NCBI RefSeq assembly: GCF_026248685.1 | Contig: NZ_CP111041.1 | Span: forward strand, 1 to 64,000 | Length of the DNA: 64,000 nt | Reading direction: 5' to 3' | DNA from: Haladaptatus caseinilyticus | GTDB taxonomy: Archaea; Halobacteriota; Halobacteria; Halobacteriales; Haladaptataceae | Part shown: positions 48,888 to 59,445 of the stretch, piece by piece | How the letters are laid out: each line of letters starts with the position of its first letter | Numbering within the stretch: the first letter of the stretch is position 1 | Program-made: the position numbers and the translations under genes | Notes under the pieces: model-generated | What the model was told of the DNA's origin: nothing | Database searches by the model: none | Seen by the model: the letters and a program-made list of their open reading frames with translations, nothing else

Positions 48888-49742
48888 ATGGAAACAACTA
48901 TGCATTCAGCGAATCTGGATGCGTGTATGACGCACCAACCCGACGACAACCGATCGACACAAAGCCTCAAGACGGTAACGACGACACTCGATGTAATCGA
49001 TGCACTCGAAACTCTCGGCGGTGCGGGTGTCACGGAATTGGCAGACCATCTCGATATTTCCAAGAGTGCGGTCTATAAGCATCTCTATACGCTGAAGGAA
49101 CGAAAATACGTCGTGAAAGACGGTAACGAATATCGACTCAGTCTTCAATTTCTCCTGTTGGGGGAACATGTTCGAAACCAAAGTCCTCTCTTTCGAATCG
49201 GTAAGCCGGAAATCGAGAAGTTGGCGGACGAGACAGGAGAGTACGCACATCTGACGACGGAACAACACGGTCTCGGGATCAATCTCTGTAAGATCCGTGG
49301 TGAACATGCTGTCGGAACCGACTACCAAATCGCGAAAAAGCAACGTGCAAACTACCTTCACTCGATGGCAACAGGGAAGGCTATTCTTGCGTCGCTTCCA
49401 AAAGAGCGAGTGGAATGGGTCGTCGACCGATATGGACTTCCTGAGATGACCGATTCGACGCTCACTGATCGAGAAACATTGTTCGAGTCACTCGACAAGA
49501 TTCGAGAGCGGGGGTACGCAGTTAATAACGGAGAGGAGGTCGAGGGCCTTCGTGCCGTCGGAGCACCAATCCACGATCGGAATGGGTCTGTTCTTGGTGC
49601 GCTGAGCGTATCGGCACCGGAAACACGACTAAGTGGCGACCAATTTCACAAACACATTCCCGAACTGGTGACGCGGACAGCGAACGTTATCGAAGTGAAC
49701 CTAAATATGGTCGAACGTTCCTCCGGTACTGGTCCGTTCTAA
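48888..49742 (+). CDS. IclR-family transcriptional regulator 3
   Basis: An IclR regulator of 284 residues from this ATG, or 271 from the ATG at 48927. The winged HTH is at about residues 40-95 (VTELADHLDISKSAVYKHLYTLKE), followed by the effector domain (LHSMATGKAILA, LRAVGAPI, GALSVSAPETRLSG). It lies at the end of the amidohydrolase module and before the CoA pathway genes, so it could regulate either. Confidence 0.9.
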   Translation: METTMHSANLDACMTHQPDDNRSTQSLKTVTTTLDVIDALETLGGAGVTELADHLDISKSAVYKHLYTLKERKYVVKDGNEYRLSLQFLLLGEHVRNQSPLFRIGKPEIEKLADETGEYAHLTTEQHGLGINLCKIRGEHAVGTDYQIAKKQRANYLHSMATGKAILASLPKERVEWVVDRYGLPEMTDSTLTDRETLFESLDKIRERGYAVNNGEEVEGLRAVGAPIHDRNGSVLGALSVSAPETRLSGDQFHKHIPELVTRTANVIEVNLNMVERSSGTGPF

Positions 49743-49770: not shown

Positions 49771-50067
49771 AGTCCCCATGCGTTTCTCGGTTATTCGCTT
49801 CAGGAAAATTTGACGGTTGCTTGTGCCGTGCGGTTCTGTCGCCTCCATGCTGATCTGAATACCGGCTTTTGAGTAGCAAGATGGGGAAGTAACATTCCCC
49901 GCTTTACTCCGGTCCCCGAAACGAGCACCCTGATAAGCGAAGGTGGTGCATGTACTCGCGACTGCAGTTTTATCGACATCGGCGGCATGGACCAATCGGT
50001 TACTCGTCGAATTTCGTTCGAACATACGAAACATTAAATGCGATTGAGTTGGATGGTAGTAATAGGC
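49771..50067. other. Intergenic region upstream of iclR 4
   Basis: About 300 bases between the palindrome at 49748 and iclR 4. I see no gene, RNA or further repeat in it. Confidence 0.4.
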
Positions 50068-50838
50068 ATGCAAACCGGAGACACACCGACCGATCCAGTT
50101 TCTACGGTGAATACGGCGTTCGAAATACTCGAAGTTCTGCACGAGCGGGAGGGAGCATCGTTGACGACGCTCGCCGACGAACTCGACTTGGCAAAGAGTA
50201 CCGTTCACCGTCACCTTCAGACGCTTCACCATCGGAAATACGTCGTCTGTGAAAAGAACCGGTATCACCTGAGTCTTCGATTTCTCGAGTTCGGAGAACA
50301 TGGTCAAACCCGTAAGAAAGGGTATTCCATGGCCGAAGAGAAAGTAAGGGAGTTGGCAGAGAAGACGGGTGAACGCGCCCAGTTTCTGGTCGAAGAACAC
50401 GGCGAGACGGTGTACGTCCATCGCGAGACGGGAAGCAACGCCGTACTGACGGATCCTGGAATCGGAAAGCGTATTCCGCTACACATGACTTCGGCCGGTA
50501 AAGCGATCCTTGCACATCTGCCGAAAGAGCGGGTAGAGCGAATCTTCGATCGATACGGATTGGTGTCCGCGACGGAGTACACGGAAACCGATCCGGAGGT
50601 ACTGTTCGAGGAGTTCGAACGTATTCGGGAACGAGGATACAGCATCAATAGACAGGAGAACGTGAAAGGACTTCACGCCCTCGGAACGGTCATCAGGGAC
50701 GGAAACGGTACCATTCTGGGTGCGATCAGCGTTTCCGGTCCGGGGAACCGTTTGAAAGGACCATTTTTCGAAGAGGAACTCCCGAACCTGTTACTCGGAA
50801 CCGCGAACGAACTCGAACTCAACATCGCTCACGCGTAA
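50068..50838 (+). CDS. IclR-family transcriptional regulator 4
   Basis: A 256-residue IclR protein starting at the ATG of MQTGDTPTD. Winged HTH at about 15-70 (LTTLADELDLAKSTVHRHLQTLHH) and effector domain with HMTSAGKAILA, LHALGTVI and GAISVSGPGNRLKG. It resembles regulator 3 more than regulators 1 and 2. It is upstream of, and co-oriented with, the MmgE/PrpD to TRAP cluster, its likely target. Confidence 0.9.
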   Translation: MQTGDTPTDPVSTVNTAFEILEVLHEREGASLTTLADELDLAKSTVHRHLQTLHHRKYVVCEKNRYHLSLRFLEFGEHGQTRKKGYSMAEEKVRELAEKTGERAQFLVEEHGETVYVHRETGSNAVLTDPGIGKRIPLHMTSAGKAILAHLPKERVERIFDRYGLVSATEYTETDPEVLFEEFERIRERGYSINRQENVKGLHALGTVIRDGNGTILGAISVSGPGNRLKGPFFEEELPNLLLGTANELELNIAHA

Positions 50839-51182: not shown

Positions 51183-52523
51183 ATGCAATCGGTGTTAGCG
51201 GAGACGTGTCTCGGTGAATTCATCGCAGGATTGTCGTACGACGATATTCCGCAGGAGAGTATCGCAACGATTACGCGAGCGTTCATCGACACGATCGGTG
51301 TGACGCTGGCAGGGTCGGCCGAAGGTGCCGGGAAGGTGACGACTGAGGCTGCCGGAATCGATCCGGCGAACGCCGACGCGGCGACATTGCTCGGCATCGA
51401 ATCGGACGCTTCCCCTGATTCCGTGGCCTTGCGTGTCGGAACGGCTAGTCATGCACTCGACTACGATGATCTCTCATGGTCGATGAGCGGGCATCCGAGC
51501 GTAACGCTCGTTCCCGCCCTGCTTGCGCTCGCTGATGAAACCGACGCGAGCGGACGTGACCTCGTTACGGCGTACGCAGCCGGCTTCGAAGCAGAGTGTG
51601 CCATTGCTCAACCAATTTCCCCCGACCATTATGAGGCTGGCTGGCACGCGACGGCTACGTTCGGCACGTTCGGCGCGGCCGCCGCGACGGCCAATTTGCT
51701 CGACCTGGACGAACCGGAAGTCGAACACGCGCTCAATATCGCCGCCTCGATGCCGTCGGGGCTCAAACGGAACTTCGGATCCATGACCAAGCCACTTCAT
51801 GCCGGCCACTGTTCACGGTCGGGAATCACTGCGAGTCGTCTCGCTTCAAACGGACTCACCGCCGACGAAGCGGCGATAAGCGGTGAACGGGGGTTCTGGG
51901 ATCTGTATAGCTCGGCGGACTGGAATCGGTTCTCGGTCGGCGATCGCTGGGCGCTACGGTCGGAAGGGATTCACATCAAGGCATACCCTTGCTGTTATTT
52001 TACGCACACCTCCATTGCGGCGGCACAGACGCTTCTTGACGGCGGAATCGACCCTGCCACCGTCGAACACGTAACCGTTTCAGCATCGGCGGGTGCTGGC
52101 GACGCGCTCCATCACGCGGACCCTGACACCGGTCTCGAAGCGAAGTTCTCGATGGAGTACGCGGTCGCGAGCGCCATCGTTCGGGATAGCATCGACCTAA
52201 CAACGTTCCGGGACGACGCTCTCGATGACTCGCGCGTGCAGCAAATGCGTGAACGGGTCGAATTCGTCGTTGACGAGGATCTAGCGTACGATTCCCACGA
52301 GGCAACTGTGCGTATCGCTACCGCCAACGATACGTATGAACGAACCCGGGAGAATCCACCGGGAGTCCACGACGATCCCTTGACCGATGACGAACTTCGA
52401 GCCAAGTTCGAGGAGTGTGCCGGAACGATCATCTCGGACGCGGAAACCGAACGATTGTACGACGTCCTCTCGTCGCTCCCCACACGAACGGATGTCGCGT
52501 CGACGATCGCCAGGGACAGCTGA
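51183..52523 (+). CDS. MmgE/PrpD-family protein
   Basis: A 446-residue member of the MmgE/PrpD family, which includes 2-methylcitrate dehydratase, cis-aconitate decarboxylase and iminodisuccinate epimerase. Family segments include FIDTIGVTLAGS, SHALDYDDLSWSMSGHPSVTLVPALLALAD (split near residue 105), GWHATATFGTFGAAAA, KPLHAGHCSRSGITAS and KAYPCCYFTHTSIAAA. It is the first gene of a co-oriented series ending in a TRAP transporter. The reaction is probably hydration, dehydration or isomerisation of a di- or tricarboxylate. Confidence 0.88.
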   Translation: MQSVLAETCLGEFIAGLSYDDIPQESIATITRAFIDTIGVTLAGSAEGAGKVTTEAAGIDPANADAATLLGIESDASPDSVALRVGTASHALDYDDLSWSMSGHPSVTLVPALLALADETDASGRDLVTAYAAGFEAECAIAQPISPDHYEAGWHATATFGTFGAAAATANLLDLDEPEVEHALNIAASMPSGLKRNFGSMTKPLHAGHCSRSGITASRLASNGLTADEAAISGERGFWDLYSSADWNRFSVGDRWALRSEGIHIKAYPCCYFTHTSIAAAQTLLDGGIDPATVEHVTVSASAGAGDALHHADPDTGLEAKFSMEYAVASAIVRDSIDLTTFRDDALDDSRVQQMRERVEFVVDEDLAYDSHEATVRIATANDTYERTRENPPGVHDDPLTDDELRAKFEECAGTIISDAETERLYDVLSSLPTRTDVASTIARDS

Positions 52524-52755
52524 ATCGTGCTGAAAACGCGCATCCGATAGGCAGATCACACAGCAACCCCGCGTCGGTTTTATAGTTCCTCGAACGTTCT
52601 CCGTGTCTACAACCGATACTTACTCGCACTGCATGAAATGTCGCACTGATCAGCCATGGTGCCGAGCGTTGCTCTGCACGCAATGATCCAACGGATTATC
52701 CGGTAATCATTGCGTGGCTCCAATACGTTTAATGCACTCATCCAATACACCATAA

Positions 52756-53964
52756 ATGATGGCAGATCCTATCGATAGCGGGTTAGCGCTATCTCCGACA
52801 CAGGAAGCCGTTTGTGACGCGATACGGACGGTGTGTCGCGAGTTCGATGACACGTACTGGCGCGACCGAGACGCGGAGGGGGAGTATCCCCACGAATTTG
52901 TCAACGCCCTTGCCGAGGAAGGGTGGCTCGGAATCCTCCTCCCTGAAGCGTATGGAGGGAAGGGGTACGGAACCGAGGAAGCGGTAGCGATGATGTACGA
53001 AATCGCCAGAAGCGGGGCAGGATTTAGCGGCGCACAGACGGTTCACGCCGCTATCTATAACTCGACGCCACTCGTAAAATACGGGAGCGAGAAGCTCAAA
53101 GACGGGCTCCTTTCGCGGGTGGCGAGCGGTGATGCGTGGATCCAGTGTTTTAGCCTCACCGAACCGAAGGCGGGATCGGAGTCGACCGCGATCACCACTC
53201 GCGCTGATCGCGACGGTGACGAGTACGTAGTTAACGGCGAGAAGCTTTGGACCTCCCGCATCGACGTCAGTGACTATCTCGTATTGGCCGCGCGAACAAC
53301 GCCATACGAGGAAGCGGGAAAGAAAACTGAAGGCGTCTCGCTGTTTCTCGTCGATATCGAGCGTGGAATCGAGGATGGGAGTATCGAATTGGAGGAGATC
53401 GAAAAAACTGTGAGCGGGGCGGTGAGCTCCTTCCGCGTAACGTACGACGATCTCCGAATTCCCGCCGACCAGCTGATCGGTGTCGAGGACGAGGGGTTCT
53501 ATCAGGTGCTCGATGGCCTCAACGAGGAGCGATTGGTAATCGCCGCCGAGACGGTGGGTCTCGGGGAACTCGCAATCGAAACGGCTGTCGAGTACGCGAA
53601 CGAGCGAGAAGTGTTCGGTCGTTCTATCGGAAAGAACCAGGCCATTCAACATCCATTGGCTGCGGCGTTTGCTCGCGTCCAAGCTGCAAAGCAGTTCACG
53701 TTCGACGCGGCAACACGGACGAAAGACGCGGATCGAAAAACGATCGGCTCACGGGCAAACACCGCGAAGTATCTCTCCGCCGAAGCTGCCTTCGAGGCGG
53801 CGGACGCCGCCGTTCAAGCTCACGGCGGACGAGGTGTGGCCCGCGAATACGACGTTGAACGGTACTTTCGCGAGGCGCGACTCACCCGTCTCGTCCCTCT
53901 TACACAGGAACTGGCACTCAACTACGTAGGGGAGAACGTACTCGGACTCCCTCGATCGTACTGA
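52756..53964 (+). CDS. Acyl-CoA dehydrogenase family protein with atypical active-site segment
   Basis: A 402-residue FAD-dependent acyl-CoA dehydrogenase. LPEAYGGKGYG, CFSLTEPKAGSES, NGEKLWTS, NEERLVIAAETVGLG and AVQAHGGRGVAREYDVERYFREARL all match the family. At the position of the usual catalytic Glu (YEGT in MCAD-like enzymes) the sequence reads VPLTQE, so the base must lie elsewhere, for example on another helix as in isovaleryl- or long-chain-type enzymes. In context the substrate may be a methylsuccinyl-CoA-like thioester. Confidence 0.88.
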   Translation: MMADPIDSGLALSPTQEAVCDAIRTVCREFDDTYWRDRDAEGEYPHEFVNALAEEGWLGILLPEAYGGKGYGTEEAVAMMYEIARSGAGFSGAQTVHAAIYNSTPLVKYGSEKLKDGLLSRVASGDAWIQCFSLTEPKAGSESTAITTRADRDGDEYVVNGEKLWTSRIDVSDYLVLAARTTPYEEAGKKTEGVSLFLVDIERGIEDGSIELEEIEKTVSGAVSSFRVTYDDLRIPADQLIGVEDEGFYQVLDGLNEERLVIAAETVGLGELAIETAVEYANEREVFGRSIGKNQAIQHPLAAAFARVQAAKQFTFDAATRTKDADRKTIGSRANTAKYLSAEAAFEAADAAVQAHGGRGVAREYDVERYFREARLTRLVPLTQELALNYVGENVLGLPRSY

Positions 53965-54003
53965 CGAATCACGTGTAATAGAGATCCAAAGAGACGCAAT
54001 ATC

Positions 54004-54588
54004 ATGAACGACAACAACACGACGGACGAGACGACGGAGAATCGATTGGTCGAAGGATGGCAGGGCCGCTACTACGAGGACTTCACGATCGGTGACGTGT
54101 ACAAACATCCGTTCGGGCGGACCGTCACCGAGACGGATAACGTTTGGATGACGAACGTAACGATGAACCTCAACCCGATGCACTTCAATGAGGCCTACGC
54201 GTCCGAAACGGAATTCGGTGAGCGCCTCGTCGACGGAACGTTTGTCATCGCACTGGCGGTCGGGATGAGTGTCATCGATGTCTCGGTCAACGCCACCGCG
54301 AACCTCGGGTACGACGACGTCCGTCACCATGCACCCGTTTTCCACGGCGACACCATCCTTGCCGAGAGTGAAGTGCTCTCTAAACGGGAGAGCGATAGTC
54401 GCGATCACGTCGGCATCGTCGAAACGGAGTTACGAGCGTACAATCAAGACAACGAGAAAGTCCTTTCGTTGAAGCGGACCCCGATGGTGTTGAAACGAGA
54501 GTACGCCCAGCCAAGCGCCGCACAGCCACCGGGATGGCCCGAGGGGATCGGTACACAACCAGGCGATACCGAGGCTACCGATGAGTAA
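54004..54588 (+). CDS. MaoC-family hydratase (mesaconyl/itaconyl-CoA hydratase type)
   Basis: A 194-residue hot-dog fold hydratase. FGRTVTETDNVWMTNVTMNLNPMHFNEAYA contains the conserved Asp/His pair region, followed by ANLGYDDVRHHAPVFHGDTI and LRAYNQDNEKVLSLKR. This pattern is close to mesaconyl-CoA hydratases and beta-methylmalyl-CoA dehydratases, known in haloarchaea from the methylaspartate cycle. It overlaps the CoA-transferase gene by 8 nt. Confidence 0.85.
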   Translation: MNDNNTTDETTENRLVEGWQGRYYEDFTIGDVYKHPFGRTVTETDNVWMTNVTMNLNPMHFNEAYASETEFGERLVDGTFVIALAVGMSVIDVSVNATANLGYDDVRHHAPVFHGDTILAESEVLSKRESDSRDHVGIVETELRAYNQDNEKVLSLKRTPMVLKREYAQPSAAQPPGWPEGIGTQPGDTEATDE

Positions 54589-56023
54589 CTCGACCGACCG
54601 CATTCAGGATGGCCTCACCGCCACCGATGCGGCGACGGCCGCTGACACCGTTGATCCCACCGACGTCGTCCTCAGTAGCGGGTTCGGTGGCGTTGGATAT
54701 CCGAAACGGGTACCCCAGGCGCTGGCCGACGACGATCGCGACATGTCGCTCACCGTCGTCTCCGGTGGGGGCGTCGGCGGCGAAATCGATGACGCACTGG
54801 TTGCGGCAGGCCAGATGGCTCGCCGGTTTCCGTTTCAGACTCGCGAACGTTCCCGTACTGCGATCAATGACGGTGAAATAGCTTTCCACGATCGCCACAT
54901 CTCGCGGTTCGGCGATGAGGTTCGGCTTGGCGATGTCGGTGATCCTGGCGTCGCAATCGTCGAAGCCGTCGCCGTCGGTGAGAACTGGTTGATTCCCACG
55001 ACTTCGATCGGACACACGCCGTCGTTCGTCGCTGCTGCCGACCGCCTCATCGTGGAGGTAAATCACGAGCAACCGCGTGAACTAGAACACATCCACGACG
55101 TCTACCAGCGTGATCTTCCTCCGAACCGCGATCCAATTCCTATCACCGAACCGATCGAACGAATCGGTTCCGCAGCGATATCGTTCGATGCCGAGAAGCT
55201 CGTCGCTGTCGTCGAAACGGATCGTTTCGACGACCCGTATTCATTCAGGGAACCGACTGACGTCGACGGCGTCATCGCGGACAACCTCCGGTCATTTTTG
55301 GAGGCGGAACTGGAGCGAAATCCGACGCTACGGGACCGCATCAATCTCCAGTTCGGGGTCGGGAGCCTCGGAAACGCGCTTATGGGTGCACTCTCCGAGA
55401 TCGACTTCGGCGACCGCGAGGTGGTGTACTTCGGCGAAGTGTTCCAAGACGGTCTCCTGGACGCCATCGACGAAGGGTTGCTGGCAGGGGCGAGTGCGAC
55501 GTCTCTCGCGCTCTCGGTCGGAGGTCAGCAACGACTGTTCGAGGATATCGAGCGATACGCCGAGGACGTCGTCCTTCGTCCCGCCGACGTGTCGAACAAT
55601 CCCGCTCTCATCGACCAATTCGGGGTCGTGGGTGTCAACAGCGCCGTCGATATCGATCTCTACGGTAACGCGAACGCGACCCATATCGGCGGGACGAACG
55701 TCATCAACGGCATCGGTGGTGGCGGTGATTTCAATCGTAACTGCCGCCTTGGGATCATCGCGCTGCCGTCGACCGCTGGAGACGGGTCCATCTCGCGGAT
55801 CGTCCCCAGCGTCGCACATGTCGACCATACCGAACACGATCACTCCGTCGTCGTTACGGAACACGGCGTCGCCGACCTTCGTGGGTTGAGTCCCACGGAA
55901 CGCATGGAACGGATCGTGGACCTTGCACACCCCGATTTTCGTGCCGACCTCCGAAAGTACAGGGATCAGGCCCTTGATGAGGGTGGCCATATCCCGATGT
56001 GCACGGACTTCGAGTTCCGGTAG
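54581..56023 (+). CDS. Acetyl-CoA hydrolase/CoA-transferase family protein
   Basis: A 480-residue class I type CoA-transferase (acetyl-CoA hydrolase / 4-hydroxybutyrate CoA-transferase family). The probable catalytic Glu lies in VVYFGEVFQDGLLDAI, the glycine-rich NGIGGGGDFNRN loop and VVVTEHGVADLRGLSPTER are conserved. It would load CoA onto the imported carboxylate using acetyl-CoA or succinyl-CoA as donor, preparing the substrate of the acyl-CoA dehydrogenase and MaoC hydratase. The start overlaps the hydratase gene. Confidence 0.86.
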   Translation: MSNSTDRIQDGLTATDAATAADTVDPTDVVLSSGFGGVGYPKRVPQALADDDRDMSLTVVSGGGVGGEIDDALVAAGQMARRFPFQTRERSRTAINDGEIAFHDRHISRFGDEVRLGDVGDPGVAIVEAVAVGENWLIPTTSIGHTPSFVAAADRLIVEVNHEQPRELEHIHDVYQRDLPPNRDPIPITEPIERIGSAAISFDAEKLVAVVETDRFDDPYSFREPTDVDGVIADNLRSFLEAELERNPTLRDRINLQFGVGSLGNALMGALSEIDFGDREVVYFGEVFQDGLLDAIDEGLLAGASATSLALSVGGQQRLFEDIERYAEDVVLRPADVSNNPALIDQFGVVGVNSAVDIDLYGNANATHIGGTNVINGIGGGGDFNRNCRLGIIALPSTAGDGSISRIVPSVAHVDHTEHDHSVVVTEHGVADLRGLSPTERMERIVDLAHPDFRADLRKYRDQALDEGGHIPMCTDFEFR

Positions 56024-56137
56024 CCCGAGCGATCGACCACTTCGGTTCCCTCGAGTATCATTATAGACGCTCATATTACTGTAAATTTTGTGAACGACGA
56101 TAATTTTATTAATAACAGTGATAATTGTGGTCTGTAT

Positions 56138-57208
56138 ATGTCTGACGACAGTGTATCGCGCCGGAACATACTGAAAGGCGCGACGACGATGGGAGCGATC
56201 AGCTTAGCCGGTTGTACCGACGGCCTCAGCGGCGGAAGCGGCGGTGAGGGCAATTATCAAATGACCATCGCTGGCACTAGTTCCGGGTCGTCGACCCAAC
56301 AGGCAGCACAGGCACTCGCACGGGCCGCACAACAACACAGTGATTCCGTTTCGATCTCCGTCCAGGTTACGGATGGCTGGACGGCCAACCTCTACGAGTT
56401 CGACAACGGTAACTTTAGCTCGATCGGCGTCGACAACAACTCCCTCTCGAAGGCGATGAACGACGAGGGACCGTTTGCGGACAAATCGATCGATTCCCTC
56501 CCGATGCAGGGATTCGTCTTTACGAATCTCGAGATTCACTGGGTTGCGATGGAAGGTTCGGGCATCAAGTCGACCGCGGACCTCCGGGATGGCGGCCACA
56601 CCATCTATCCCATTCAACCCGGGTTCGGTACGCGATTACTCACTGAGGAAGTGATCAAGGAGGCAGGACTCTGGAAACAAAACGATATCCTCAACGTCGA
56701 CACCAGCGATATTCCCGGCGCCGTGGAGGAGAAACGTGCCGATGCGCTCTGCATTTACGGAGCGAACGGGGTTAACCTATCGAGCTGGGTACAGGAGGTC
56801 GACGTCCGCAGCAACGGCGGCCTCTACCTGATGGAAGTCGACGACGAATTCCGTCAGGCCATCAAGAACGTGCCAGGTGCGATCGTGAACGAGTTCGACG
56901 ACTATCCATACGAGTGGGAACAGGACGTGACCAAGGTCACGGATACGACCACCGCATGGGTTCTCTCCGGTCAGTGGGCGTTCGGTCCCGACGTCCCCGC
57001 CGATGCGGCAAAAGAGGTCGCTCGTCTTTCCACAGAACACCACGACACCATTCGCGAGGCTGATCCCACGGCGCTCGACCACTCCGGCATGAACTCGATG
57101 ACTACCGCCGTCATCCCTGACCTGGAGATTCATCCGGGCGTTGCCGAATACTGGCGGAACAACGATGTCTGGAACGATGATTGGAAAGAAGGCTCGACGA
57201 ACGAATAG
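56138..57208 (+). CDS. TAXI-family TRAP transporter binding lipoprotein
   Basis: Extracytoplasmic receptor of a TRAP transporter, 356 residues. Twin-arginine signal SRRNILKGATT (residues 7-17) and lipobox LAGC near residue 26, then a Ser/Gly linker and the TAXI-family pattern (YQMTIAGTSSGSSTQQAAQALARA). A TATA-like TTATTAATAA sits about 25-32 nt before the ATG at 56138. TAXI proteins bind carboxylates such as glutamate or C4/C5 diacids. Confidence 0.9.
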   Translation: MSDDSVSRRNILKGATTMGAISLAGCTDGLSGGSGGEGNYQMTIAGTSSGSSTQQAAQALARAAQQHSDSVSISVQVTDGWTANLYEFDNGNFSSIGVDNNSLSKAMNDEGPFADKSIDSLPMQGFVFTNLEIHWVAMEGSGIKSTADLRDGGHTIYPIQPGFGTRLLTEEVIKEAGLWKQNDILNVDTSDIPGAVEEKRADALCIYGANGVNLSSWVQEVDVRSNGGLYLMEVDDEFRQAIKNVPGAIVNEFDDYPYEWEQDVTKVTDTTTAWVLSGQWAFGPDVPADAAKEVARLSTEHHDTIREADPTALDHSGMNSMTTAVIPDLEIHPGVAEYWRNNDVWNDDWKEGSTNE

Positions 57209-57274
57209 ACTGTTCCCGACCGTACGATTCAGCAACTGAACGTCAATCAGAGCACCCAAACCCTGACACAACTC

Positions 57275-57334
57275 ATGCACGAAAAATCGACAAACGATAC
57301 TGAACTACCGATTGACCGGGGTGACCGGTCGTGA
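57275..57334 (+). CDS. Possible 19-residue mini-ORF coupled to the TRAP permease
   Basis: An ATG-started frame (MHEKSTNDTELPIDRGDRS) whose TGA stop overlaps the GTG start of the permease as GTGA. It could provide translational coupling or be fortuitous. No homology support. Confidence 0.25.
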   Translation: MHEKSTNDTELPIDRGDRS

Positions 57335-59445
57335 CCGAGGCAACGGCGGATGACTTGGACCCCGGAGATGGTCAGAAGTTCGAGACCGAGCGCCCGGGAG
57401 ATGCCGAACTGTTGTCCATGCGAAACGTACTGATCGGCATCTCGGTCCTCTTCTGGGTGTTCGTCATCTGGTACGCCTGGGATCAGACCATCCCCCGTGC
57501 GCAGTACGGCGTCATCTTCTTCGGAATCATCCTCGAACTGTTCGTCCTCACCGAACTGATGGAGCTTGCAGGCGGTGGTCGGGGTTATCTTCCCACCGAC
57601 GTCAAACGAGCCTATGGTCCCGGTAACAGGATCGAAGCGTTGTTGTTGACGTTCTCCGCAATCGACGTGGCAATCACGTGTCTGTACGTCGCGACGCAGT
57701 TCCAAGCGTTGTACGTCACCAGACAAGGCAGGGCACTCCAGTACGAAATCTACATGGCGGCGGTATTCACGCTCGTCGTGATCTATCTGACTTGGCGGTC
57801 GTTCGGCCCGACCTTCCTGTCTATCATCCTTCTGGGGATCGCTTACGGCCGCTGGGGGATGTTCGCACCCGGCCCGCTCTCACACGGCGGTATCGGTTGG
57901 GACAGGCTCATGCGTGTTCTCGTCCTCAGCGTCGGGGGATTTTTTGGCTTCCTGACACAGTTGGTTGCGGCGTGGATTGCACTGTTTTTGCTCTACGCCG
58001 GGTTCCTGAAGGCGTTTGGCGCGTTCGACCTTATCATGCGCCTGGCGTTCCGTTCGGCTAGGTACATCGATTCGGGAATCGCACAGACCGCCGTGCTGTC
58101 CTCGGCCGTCGTAGGATCGGTCAACGGCAGTCAAACAGCAAACGCCGGGATGACTGGCTCGTTCACCATCCCACTTATGAAGCGGAACGGTATGAAACCC
58201 GAAACTGCGGGTGCGATCGAGGCCGTCGCCTCAACTTCCGGTCAAGTGCTCCCGCCAGTGATGGGGGCTGCCGCATTCATCATGGCATCACTGATAACCG
58301 GCATCACATACGCGGACGTCATCGTCGCCGGCTTGATCCCCGCAGCAGTGTTGGTGGTGACGATCTTCATCGCGGTACACTACGTTTCCGTGCCACAACT
58401 CAACGACACCGACCCCGAAGCTCTCATCGAGGATCCGATGGATCGGTCGGAGTTCGTCATCGAGAGTCTGAAGTACGGCATTCCGCTGGCGATCTTGATC
58501 TACAAGCTGGGGATCGAACAGGTGACGGTGATGACCGCCGCGCTGTGGACGGCAACGGCGATGCTCGCTACCGGCACGCTGGTTCCCTTGATTCAGGCCG
58601 CGATCGGAACGAGCGGGGAGTCCGTCGGAACGTCCGCCCATCGAAGCATCTGGGAGACGCTTGACGGCGCACGCGAAGGAGTGGTCGTCCTCGCGCCGGT
58701 TGCGATCATCCTTGGTGCGATAAACGGCGTCGTGGACATCCTTACTGCGACAGGGGTTCCGACATCGATTTCGCTCACTCTGATGGATCTCTCGGGCGGC
58801 GTACTGTGGATTGCAGCCATCCTCGCGATGATCATCTGTATTATCCTCGGATTAGGGATGCCCACGACGGCGTCGTACACGATCGTCGCGCTACTCATCG
58901 CGCCGACGCTCATCAATCAGTTCTTCCTACCGGAACTCGCGGGGCACTTCTTCGTATTCTATGCGGCGATTCTCGCGGGACTCACGCCGCCGATCGCGAC
59001 CTGCGTCGCTGTGGCCTCCGGGATCGCCGGTGCTGACTTCTGGAAGAGTTGTTGGGAGGCGATCAAAATATCCGCACCGCTGTTCATCCTTCCCTTCGCG
59101 TTCGTCTACCATCCCGAAATCGTCTCCGCTCAACTAAACGGGCAGGTGCTCACGTCCGGTGCGTTCGCGATGATCGGGGCGATCACGATTATTCACGGGA
59201 TCAACTACCCGTTCTCGTTCGAAACGTCGATCACGCTTCCGGCTCGGTTCGCCTTCATCGTGATGGGTATCGTCATTATGCTCTATCCGTCATCGACGGT
59301 GCAGGTGATTGCATTCGCCCTCGTCGTCGCGATGTACATCGTTCAGGCGTTCGTCGGGCGGCCAGACCCAACTGGCGTTTTCCGCAGCAAAATTGGCACT
59401 TCCAGTGGACGACAACCCCGACCGAGTGAATCGAAGCGCGAGTAG
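57331..59445 (+). CDS. TRAP transporter fused permease (4TM-12TM, DctQM fusion)
   Basis: A 704-residue TRAP permease of the TAXI-associated type, with small and large membrane subunits fused. About 16 or more helices. Large-subunit motifs include GSVNGSQTANAGMTGSFTIPLMKRNG, AVASTSGQVLPPVMGAAAFIMA and the second repeat LGLGMPTTASYTIVALLIAPTL and YAAILAGLTPPIATCVAVASGIAGADFWK. It uses a GTG start. It imports the carboxylate for the CoA pathway upstream, driven by an ion gradient. Confidence 0.92.
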   Translation: MTEATADDLDPGDGQKFETERPGDAELLSMRNVLIGISVLFWVFVIWYAWDQTIPRAQYGVIFFGIILELFVLTELMELAGGGRGYLPTDVKRAYGPGNRIEALLLTFSAIDVAITCLYVATQFQALYVTRQGRALQYEIYMAAVFTLVVIYLTWRSFGPTFLSIILLGIAYGRWGMFAPGPLSHGGIGWDRLMRVLVLSVGGFFGFLTQLVAAWIALFLLYAGFLKAFGAFDLIMRLAFRSARYIDSGIAQTAVLSSAVVGSVNGSQTANAGMTGSFTIPLMKRNGMKPETAGAIEAVASTSGQVLPPVMGAAAFIMASLITGITYADVIVAGLIPAAVLVVTIFIAVHYVSVPQLNDTDPEALIEDPMDRSEFVIESLKYGIPLAILIYKLGIEQVTVMTAALWTATAMLATGTLVPLIQAAIGTSGESVGTSAHRSIWETLDGAREGVVVLAPVAIILGAINGVVDILTATGVPTSISLTLMDLSGGVLWIAAILAMIICIILGLGMPTTASYTIVALLIAPTLINQFFLPELAGHFFVFYAAILAGLTPPIATCVAVASGIAGADFWKSCWEAIKISAPLFILPFAFVYHPEIVSAQLNGQVLTSGAFAMIGAITIIHGINYPFSFETSITLPARFAFIVMGIVIMLYPSSTVQVIAFALVVAMYIVQAFVGRPDPTGVFRSKIGTSSGRQPRPSESKRE

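Follow-up and report, generated by a model that had tools for sequence, protein, structure and literature searches.

The functions encoded by the itaconate-methylsuccinate cluster of Pseudomonas aeruginosa and Cupriavidus necator have been assigned experimentally (PMC12290011, PMC9875883, PMC12599236). According to a survey of 2025, the isomerase of this bacterial system (Msi), a member of the MmgE/PrpD superfamily, occurs almost solely in Pseudomonadota (PMC12290011), and Borjian et al. (2017) regarded a part for methylsuccinate in any haloarchaeal pathway as doubtful (PMC5592240). Here, we describe an operon at 51183-59445 of a 64,000-nucleotide stretch of Haladaptatus caseinilyticus DNA (the window), which forms the start of a 557-kb contig in a haloarchaeal genome of 4.82 Mb. 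The operon consists of six plus-strand genes, four for enzymes followed by a TAXI-TRAP transporter pair (Table 1). We consider it probable that it serves to import and degrade methylsuccinate or a 2-substituted succinate closely resembling it. Its best explanation would be a haloarchaeal counterpart of the bacterial cluster, in which the isomerase is non-orthologous and the CoA-transferase belongs to a different class. Published work on this module in haloarchaea was not found in the open-access papers searched; apparently, it is a variant, with partly different enzymes, of a bacterial pathway characterised in 2025 and unreported in archaea.

Gene content and conservation of the module

Gene families were assigned with Pfam and NCBIfam profiles. 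A first-pass annotation of this DNA had placed a set of co-oriented genes downstream of an IclR gene, with coordinates and strand that were right; it had counted five enzymes and transporter genes, of which the common orientation holds while the count should be four enzymes and two transporter genes. The start of the CoA-transferase gene overlaps the end of the maoC gene by 8 bp. Homologues of the nearer IclR regulator, with 53-58% identity, adjoin the module in several haloarchaea (L058, L059, L060 and others).

Table 1. Genes of the operon and of the regulators upstream, with the roles proposed for them
Product and proposed role	Coordinates	Strand	Basis
IclR-family regulator, possible controller	48888..49742	+	Pfam IclR_C, 117 bits; role from position
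IclR-family regulator, likely local regulator	50038..50838	+	Pfam IclR_C, 118 bits
MmgE/PrpD protein, proposed (S)-(R)-methylsuccinate (2-substituted succinate) isomerase	51183..52523	+	Pfam, trees, structure model
Acyl-CoA dehydrogenase (ACAD), proposed methylsuccinyl-C4-CoA dehydrogenase	52756..53964	+	Profiles, active-site layout, tree
MaoC-fold hydratase, proposed mesaconyl-C4-CoA (itaconyl-CoA) hydratase	54004..54588	+	NCBIfam, Pfam, RipB identity
Cat1/ScpC-like class I CoA-transferase, proposed succinyl-CoA (or acetyl-CoA):methylsuccinate CoA-transferase	54581..56023	+	NCBIfam ScpC; acetyl-CoA hydrolase/transferase family
TAXI-family TRAP solute-binding lipoprotein	56090..57208	+	Pfam NMT1_3, TIGR02122
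TRAP transporter fused permease	57331..59445	+	TIGR02123

The conservation of the module was followed in 292 haloarchaeal genomes that sample the class evenly. Orthologues were accepted at identities of at least 47% for MmgE, 54% for the acyl-CoA dehydrogenase (ACAD) and 74% for MaoC, cut-offs that were chosen after the gaps in the match lists had been seen (for MaoC, a drop from 74% to 51%); neighbouring genes were called with a codon-score caller and tblastn. Thirty-nine genomes carry the window-type MmgE, at 40 loci in all; ACAD orthologues are present in 65 genomes and MaoC orthologues in 89, with 62 genomes holding both of the latter. Within 12 kb of the window-type MmgE, the ACAD is present at 33 of the 40 loci and the MaoC at 28, and 37 of the 39 genomes with this MmgE also hold the ACAD (Fisher p ~1e-26, uncorrected for phylogeny). 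By locus counts as well as by genome co-occurrence, the grouping of MmgE, ACAD and MaoC exceeds chance. TAXI-TRAP genes lie near the module at six further window-type loci, and Haloprofundus sp. MHR1 carries a module with the same gene content; other carriers are Natrinema zhouii and species of Halobaculum and Halorussus.

The isomerase candidate

Both Pfam domains of the MmgE/PrpD superfamily are found in the window MmgE above the gathering score (N domain, 197.2 bits; C domain, 105.6 bits). The catalytic set of the P. aeruginosa isomerase (His88, Glu91, His102, Tyr148, His152, Lys202 and Lys266) is matched by H90, D93, H104, Y150, H155, K203 and K266, with one change within the set, namely Asp for Msi Glu91, as in iminodisuccinate epimerase. 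The epimerase Tyr (Y150), which is absent from human cis-aconitate decarboxylase, is kept, and the active-site signature (D-[FY], W, Y272) puts the protein nearer iminodisuccinate epimerase than Msi. Iminodisuccinate epimerase is also the best structural match of the predicted model, whose mean pLDDT is 94.8 (Z 51.3, root-mean-square deviation 1.9 Å over 429 residues), while cis-aconitate decarboxylases (Z 47-49) and 2-methylcitrate dehydratases (Z 32-39) rank lower. De Witt et al. likewise found the fold of PA0881 to be closest to iminodisuccinate epimerase. A common fold alone does not establish the function of the modelled protein; the active site and the bacterial precedent point to an (S)-(R) isomerase.

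For the phylogeny, MmgE genes adjoining methylsuccinyl-CoA dehydrogenase (Mcd)-type ACADs in relatives of Bordetella petrii, recognised by synteny and residue numbering, were used as proxies for bacterial Msi; the residue numbers of one of them (L220) are identical to those published for P. aeruginosa. The window MmgE forms a separate clade in the trees, in which other uncharacterised MmgE families are unevenly sampled. Its membership in the bacterial Msi clade was rejected by the approximately unbiased (AU) test (p-AU 2.5e-66), as was a single clade of the window type and the other haloarchaeal MmgE type described below (7e-47), both values being somewhat optimistic since the groups were partly named after the first tree had been seen. 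Consequently, the window MmgE and the bacterial methylsuccinate isomerase are not orthologues.

About 20 other haloarchaea have a different MmgE within 12 kb of the same ACAD, only 30-37% identical to that of the window. All 13 examined proteins of this alternative type group with the Msi proxies as their sister (support 99/97 in a reduced tree, with which the full tree agrees), and they have Phe151 and Arg272 in common with them. The orthologous ACAD is kept at all 13 of these loci, 10 of which also have MaoC, the Cat1 transferase and TAXI-TRAP genes. An MmgE of any kind was seen within 12 kb at 52 of the ACAD loci: the window type at 33 and a divergent one at 20, with both at a single locus. 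The simplest reading is that one isomerase replaced the other for the same or the mirror-image task. Since both types share the ACAD locus and their occurrence is nearly exclusive, non-orthologous replacement of the isomerase is the best reading. That the window type evolved independently as a second methylsuccinate isomerase and replaced the Msi-sister type in an operon that is otherwise much alike, and that haloarchaea thereby have a dedicated methylsuccinate pathway, is a tentative extension that we consider somewhat less probable than its opposite.

A second, distant MmgE/PrpD gene (~27-29% identity) is located on the same contig (L057, G000:C6:247649-248833) with no ACAD or MaoC neighbours.

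The other enzymes and the transporter

In the ACAD, a Glu in helix G (LDGLNEERL) matches the Mcd-type motif LDGLNAERT, and the Glu of the MCAD type is lost; from known ACAD structures, we take both positions to be catalytic ones. The active-site layout is thus that of methylsuccinyl-CoA dehydrogenase, an activity which we propose for the protein as a prediction. In the tree, the haloarchaeal ACADs form a clade of their own (100/100) next to that of Mcd (support 94/74). In the cluster of the P. aeruginosa and C. necator type, the isomerase gene has that of an (RS)-methylsuccinyl-C4-CoA dehydrogenase as its neighbour; here, the gene of an ACAD that may have this activity adjoins the isomerase candidate. 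At five loci, a second ACAD lies near the module (L041:6810-7952, with relatives in L040, L048, L049 and L067); it resembles 3-sulfinopropanoyl-CoA desulfinase, with a score of 266.6 bits against a cut-off of 600.

For the MaoC protein, the RipB/Ich itaconyl-CoA hydratase family (NF038241, 176 bits) is the best one by a wide margin; it scores 84.5 bits with Pfam MC_hydratase and is ~50% identical to Paraburkholderia RipB. By sequence, it appears closest to the itaconyl/mesaconyl-CoA hydratases, a C5-specific family. The CoA-transferase scores 480.8 bits with the succinyl-CoA:acetate CoA-transferase model ScpC (NF053853), and its Glu286 aligns with the catalytic Glu of the structures of that enzyme. 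By profile and alignment, it is a class I Cat1/ScpC-like enzyme and not of class III (CaiB-type). Many of the haloarchaeal loci contain the Cat1-type transferase, and a group of others has a class III enzyme instead.

The TAXI protein scores over the cut-off with NMT1_3 (46.2 bits, cut-off 27) and under it with TIGR02122 (66.9 bits, cut-off 84.35), while the fused permease is above that of TIGR02123 (390.9 bits, cut-off 320.65). The likelier start of the TAXI protein is the ATG at 56138, which gives a Tat leader (SRRNILKG) and a lipobox (LAGC). Solved structures related to it by sequence were not found at E 0.001. TAXI proteins are the only TRAP binding proteins reported in archaea (PMC11574862), which would account for a TAXI importer in place of a DctP-type one.

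Lyase candidates and the methylaspartate cycle

The genome has seven genes of the HpcH/HpaI family, two of which are RipC/CitE-like, on contigs C1 and C5. The candidate on C1 scores 207.6 bits with RipC/Ccl (cut-off 375); it is a general haloarchaeal gene, at best able to serve the pathway. This gene (G000:C1, L078:5642-6793) lies ~4 kb from a second MaoC gene (about L078:10211-10730), whose product is 43-46% identical to the operon MaoC, and a dozen or more further haloarchaeal genomes hold a lyase/MaoC pair within ~2 kb. The CitE-like gene on C5 (144.2 bits) adjoins a class III (CaiB-type) CoA-transferase gene inside a peptide/nickel-type ABC transporter cluster (G000:C5, L081:3216-11247), possibly another hydroxyacyl-CoA degradation system.

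Two HpcH genes of the window itself, at 17.9 and 27.7 kb, were considered as the missing lyase and rejected, as they encode GarL/HpaI-type aldolases and not CitE-type lyases. The region 12325-39429 of the window carries genes for sugar-acid catabolism, namely enolase-superfamily dehydratases, a galactarate/altronate dehydratase C-terminal protein and dioxovalerate dehydrogenase, together with two GarL/HpaI-type aldolases and a TctC/TctA transporter pair. An archaeal SMC-related protein and a haloarchaeal 2,5-dioxovalerate dehydrogenase are above cut-off in the window.

The methylaspartate cycle was also considered as a home for the module. Its mesaconyl-CoA hydratase (NF041625) and mesaconate CoA-transferase (NF041294) have no match above cut-off in the genome; therefore, the module does not belong to this cycle.

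Proposed pathway and alternative explanations

In the proposed pathway, the diacid would be imported by the TAXI-TRAP pair, and MmgE would interconvert its enantiomers by a two-base (His104/Tyr150) proton exchange at C2, a racemising role favoured because of its residues, gene position and bacterial precedent. The Cat1-type transferase would then put CoA on C4, with succinyl-CoA or acetyl-CoA as the donor. To judge from its active-site layout, the ACAD would form mesaconyl-C4-CoA, from which the MaoC hydratase, like its RipB/Ich relatives, may form citramalyl-CoA. Finally, a CitE/RipC-like lyase encoded outside the operon would yield acetyl-CoA and pyruvate. The first-pass annotation had suggested the import of a branched C5 diacid followed by CoA loading, dehydrogenation and hydration, which is supported as the best inference, and it had expected an HpcH-type lyase elsewhere, for which the RipC/Ccl-like gene on contig C1 can be named. 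It had assigned MmgE/PrpD no role and had left the substrate among methylsuccinate, mesaconate and itaconate, where the dehydrogenase favours methylsuccinate over the other two.

Several points weigh against methylsuccinate degradation. The hydratase and the CoA-transferase both score under the curated cut-offs of their best families (176 against 340 bits for NF038241 and 480.8 against 500 for NF053853), and the support for the ACAD as a sister of Mcd is only moderate (94/74). Cat1 enzymes are known mostly for exchange between short acyl-CoAs and acetate. In addition, methylsuccinate is a poor substrate, with acetyl-CoA as the donor, for a class I transferase from a different family (PMC9768450). 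The window MmgE is no member of the bacterial isomerase clade and is without Glu91/Gln92, Phe151 and Arg272 of Msi, and it should be noted that the Msi sequences compared are proxies, not the assayed proteins. Finally, there is no lyase gene within the operon, and the C1 lyase is not specific, its matches occurring in 263 of the 292 haloarchaeal genomes, mostly ~60-79% identical.

The substrate could instead be another 2-substituted succinate, such as an alkylsuccinate of greater length or a compound like iminodisuccinate, in which case MmgE would be its epimerase. The rank of iminodisuccinate epimerase before Msi in active-site signature and fold would fit such a substrate, and the Msi pocket could accommodate larger ones (PMC12290011). 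However, the MaoC is closest to C5-specific hydratases, a C-N lyase is not among the recurrent neighbours of the module, and the presence of an Msi-sister isomerase at the same ACAD locus points to methylsuccinate, so we regard this alternative as unlikely, if the most serious one. Degradation mainly of itaconate or mesaconate, with the dehydrogenase and MmgE as accessories, is somewhat less likely still. It agrees with the pairing of a class I CoA-transferase with a hydratase like RipB/Ich, which the Y. pestis-type itaconate cluster also has, and five-gene bacterial clusters handle both substrates. However, three-gene itaconate clusters do without the dehydrogenase and MmgE, and methylsuccinate is favoured because these two, neither of which is needed for itaconate degradation, are the most consistently linked pair of the module.

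It is quite improbable that the operon serves the usual degradation of branched-chain fatty acyl-CoAs or amino acids, with an ACAD of the isovaleryl-CoA dehydrogenase kind. The helix-G catalytic Glu is also found in isovaleryl-CoA dehydrogenase, and related ACADs occur in other catabolic clusters (L093), but the characterised MmgE/PrpD enzymes use 1,4-dicarboxylates, and the operon holds a dicarboxylyl-CoA-type hydratase and a TAXI-TRAP importer, with no thiolase or carboxylase. Least probable of all, by a shade, is a role for MmgE in supplying itaconate or propionate metabolism, as a cis-aconitate decarboxylase or a 2-methylcitrate dehydratase. These enzymes belong to the same superfamily; however, the retained Tyr150 speaks against the decarboxylase, the PrpD models score very low and the PrpD folds come lower in the ranking (Z 32-39 against 51), and neither prpB nor prpC is among the neighbours seen.

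If the degradation of methylsuccinate is borne out, this compound would be a nutrient in hypersaline settings, the operon would be a source of salt-active enzymes for C5-diacid chemistry, and the two MmgE types would allow a test of how distantly related isomerases within a family replace one another. From the operon, a concrete hypothesis on the ligand of archaeal TAXI-TRAP transporters can also be drawn.

Comparison with known systems

The first-pass annotation knew of no named pathway with this gene set, a statement overtaken by the P. aeruginosa and C. necator clusters, which hold the same kinds of enzymes (PMC12290011, PMC9875883). Like the operon, the cluster (PA0878-PA0883 in P. aeruginosa) encodes a CoA-transferase, a hydratase, an ACAD and an MmgE/PrpD protein, and a TRAP importer is present in both, of the DctP type in P. 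aeruginosa (PA0884-PA0886) and of the TAXI type here. However, the gene of the CitE-type lyase, an (S)-citramalyl-CoA lyase in the bacterial cluster, is inside that cluster, while CitE/RipC-like genes are elsewhere in the genome here, the CoA-transferase is of class III in P. aeruginosa and of the class I Cat1 type here, and in the haloarchaeal operon the MmgE comes from another clade and the MaoC is of the small RipB type.

The Yersinia pestis-type rip operon for itaconate (RipA, RipB and RipC) shares with it a hydratase (~50% identical to a RipB/Ich-annotated protein) and a CoA-transferase of the acetyl-CoA hydrolase/transferase family, which belongs to another subfamily and is ~32% identical to the RipA-like protein compared; the haloarchaeal operon adds the dehydrogenase and MmgE and has no lyase inside. 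The haloarchaeal methylaspartate cycle (Mct, Mch) also involves C5-dicarboxylyl-CoA chemistry, and Mct accepts methylsuccinate in vitro (PMC5592240), whereas its CoA esters are C1-linked and its proteins are others. Iminodisuccinate epimerase (2HP0), the closest solved structure to MmgE, has the same His/Tyr/Lys set, with ~29% identity and a place in another pathway.

Among actinobacteria, MaoC, an Msi-clade MmgE and an Mcd-type ACAD are adjacent on a plasmid of Rubrobacter indicoceani (L096), probably a methylsuccinate module outside Pseudomonadota. In support of the proposed pathway, the genes for lyase, MmgE, CaiB, MaoC and ACAD are adjacent on an actinobacterial plasmid. A contig search with the Rhodococcus MmgE gave many SAR11 homologues in unrelated gene context. 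Finally, the uncharacterised cluster on Rhodococcus rhodochrous pGD02.2.1 (L090) resembles the operon in having IclR, MmgE, MaoC, ACAD and CoA-transferase side by side, and differs from it in that the lyase is included, the transferase is CaiB-type, and the MmgE and ACAD are 39% and 43% identical, respectively.

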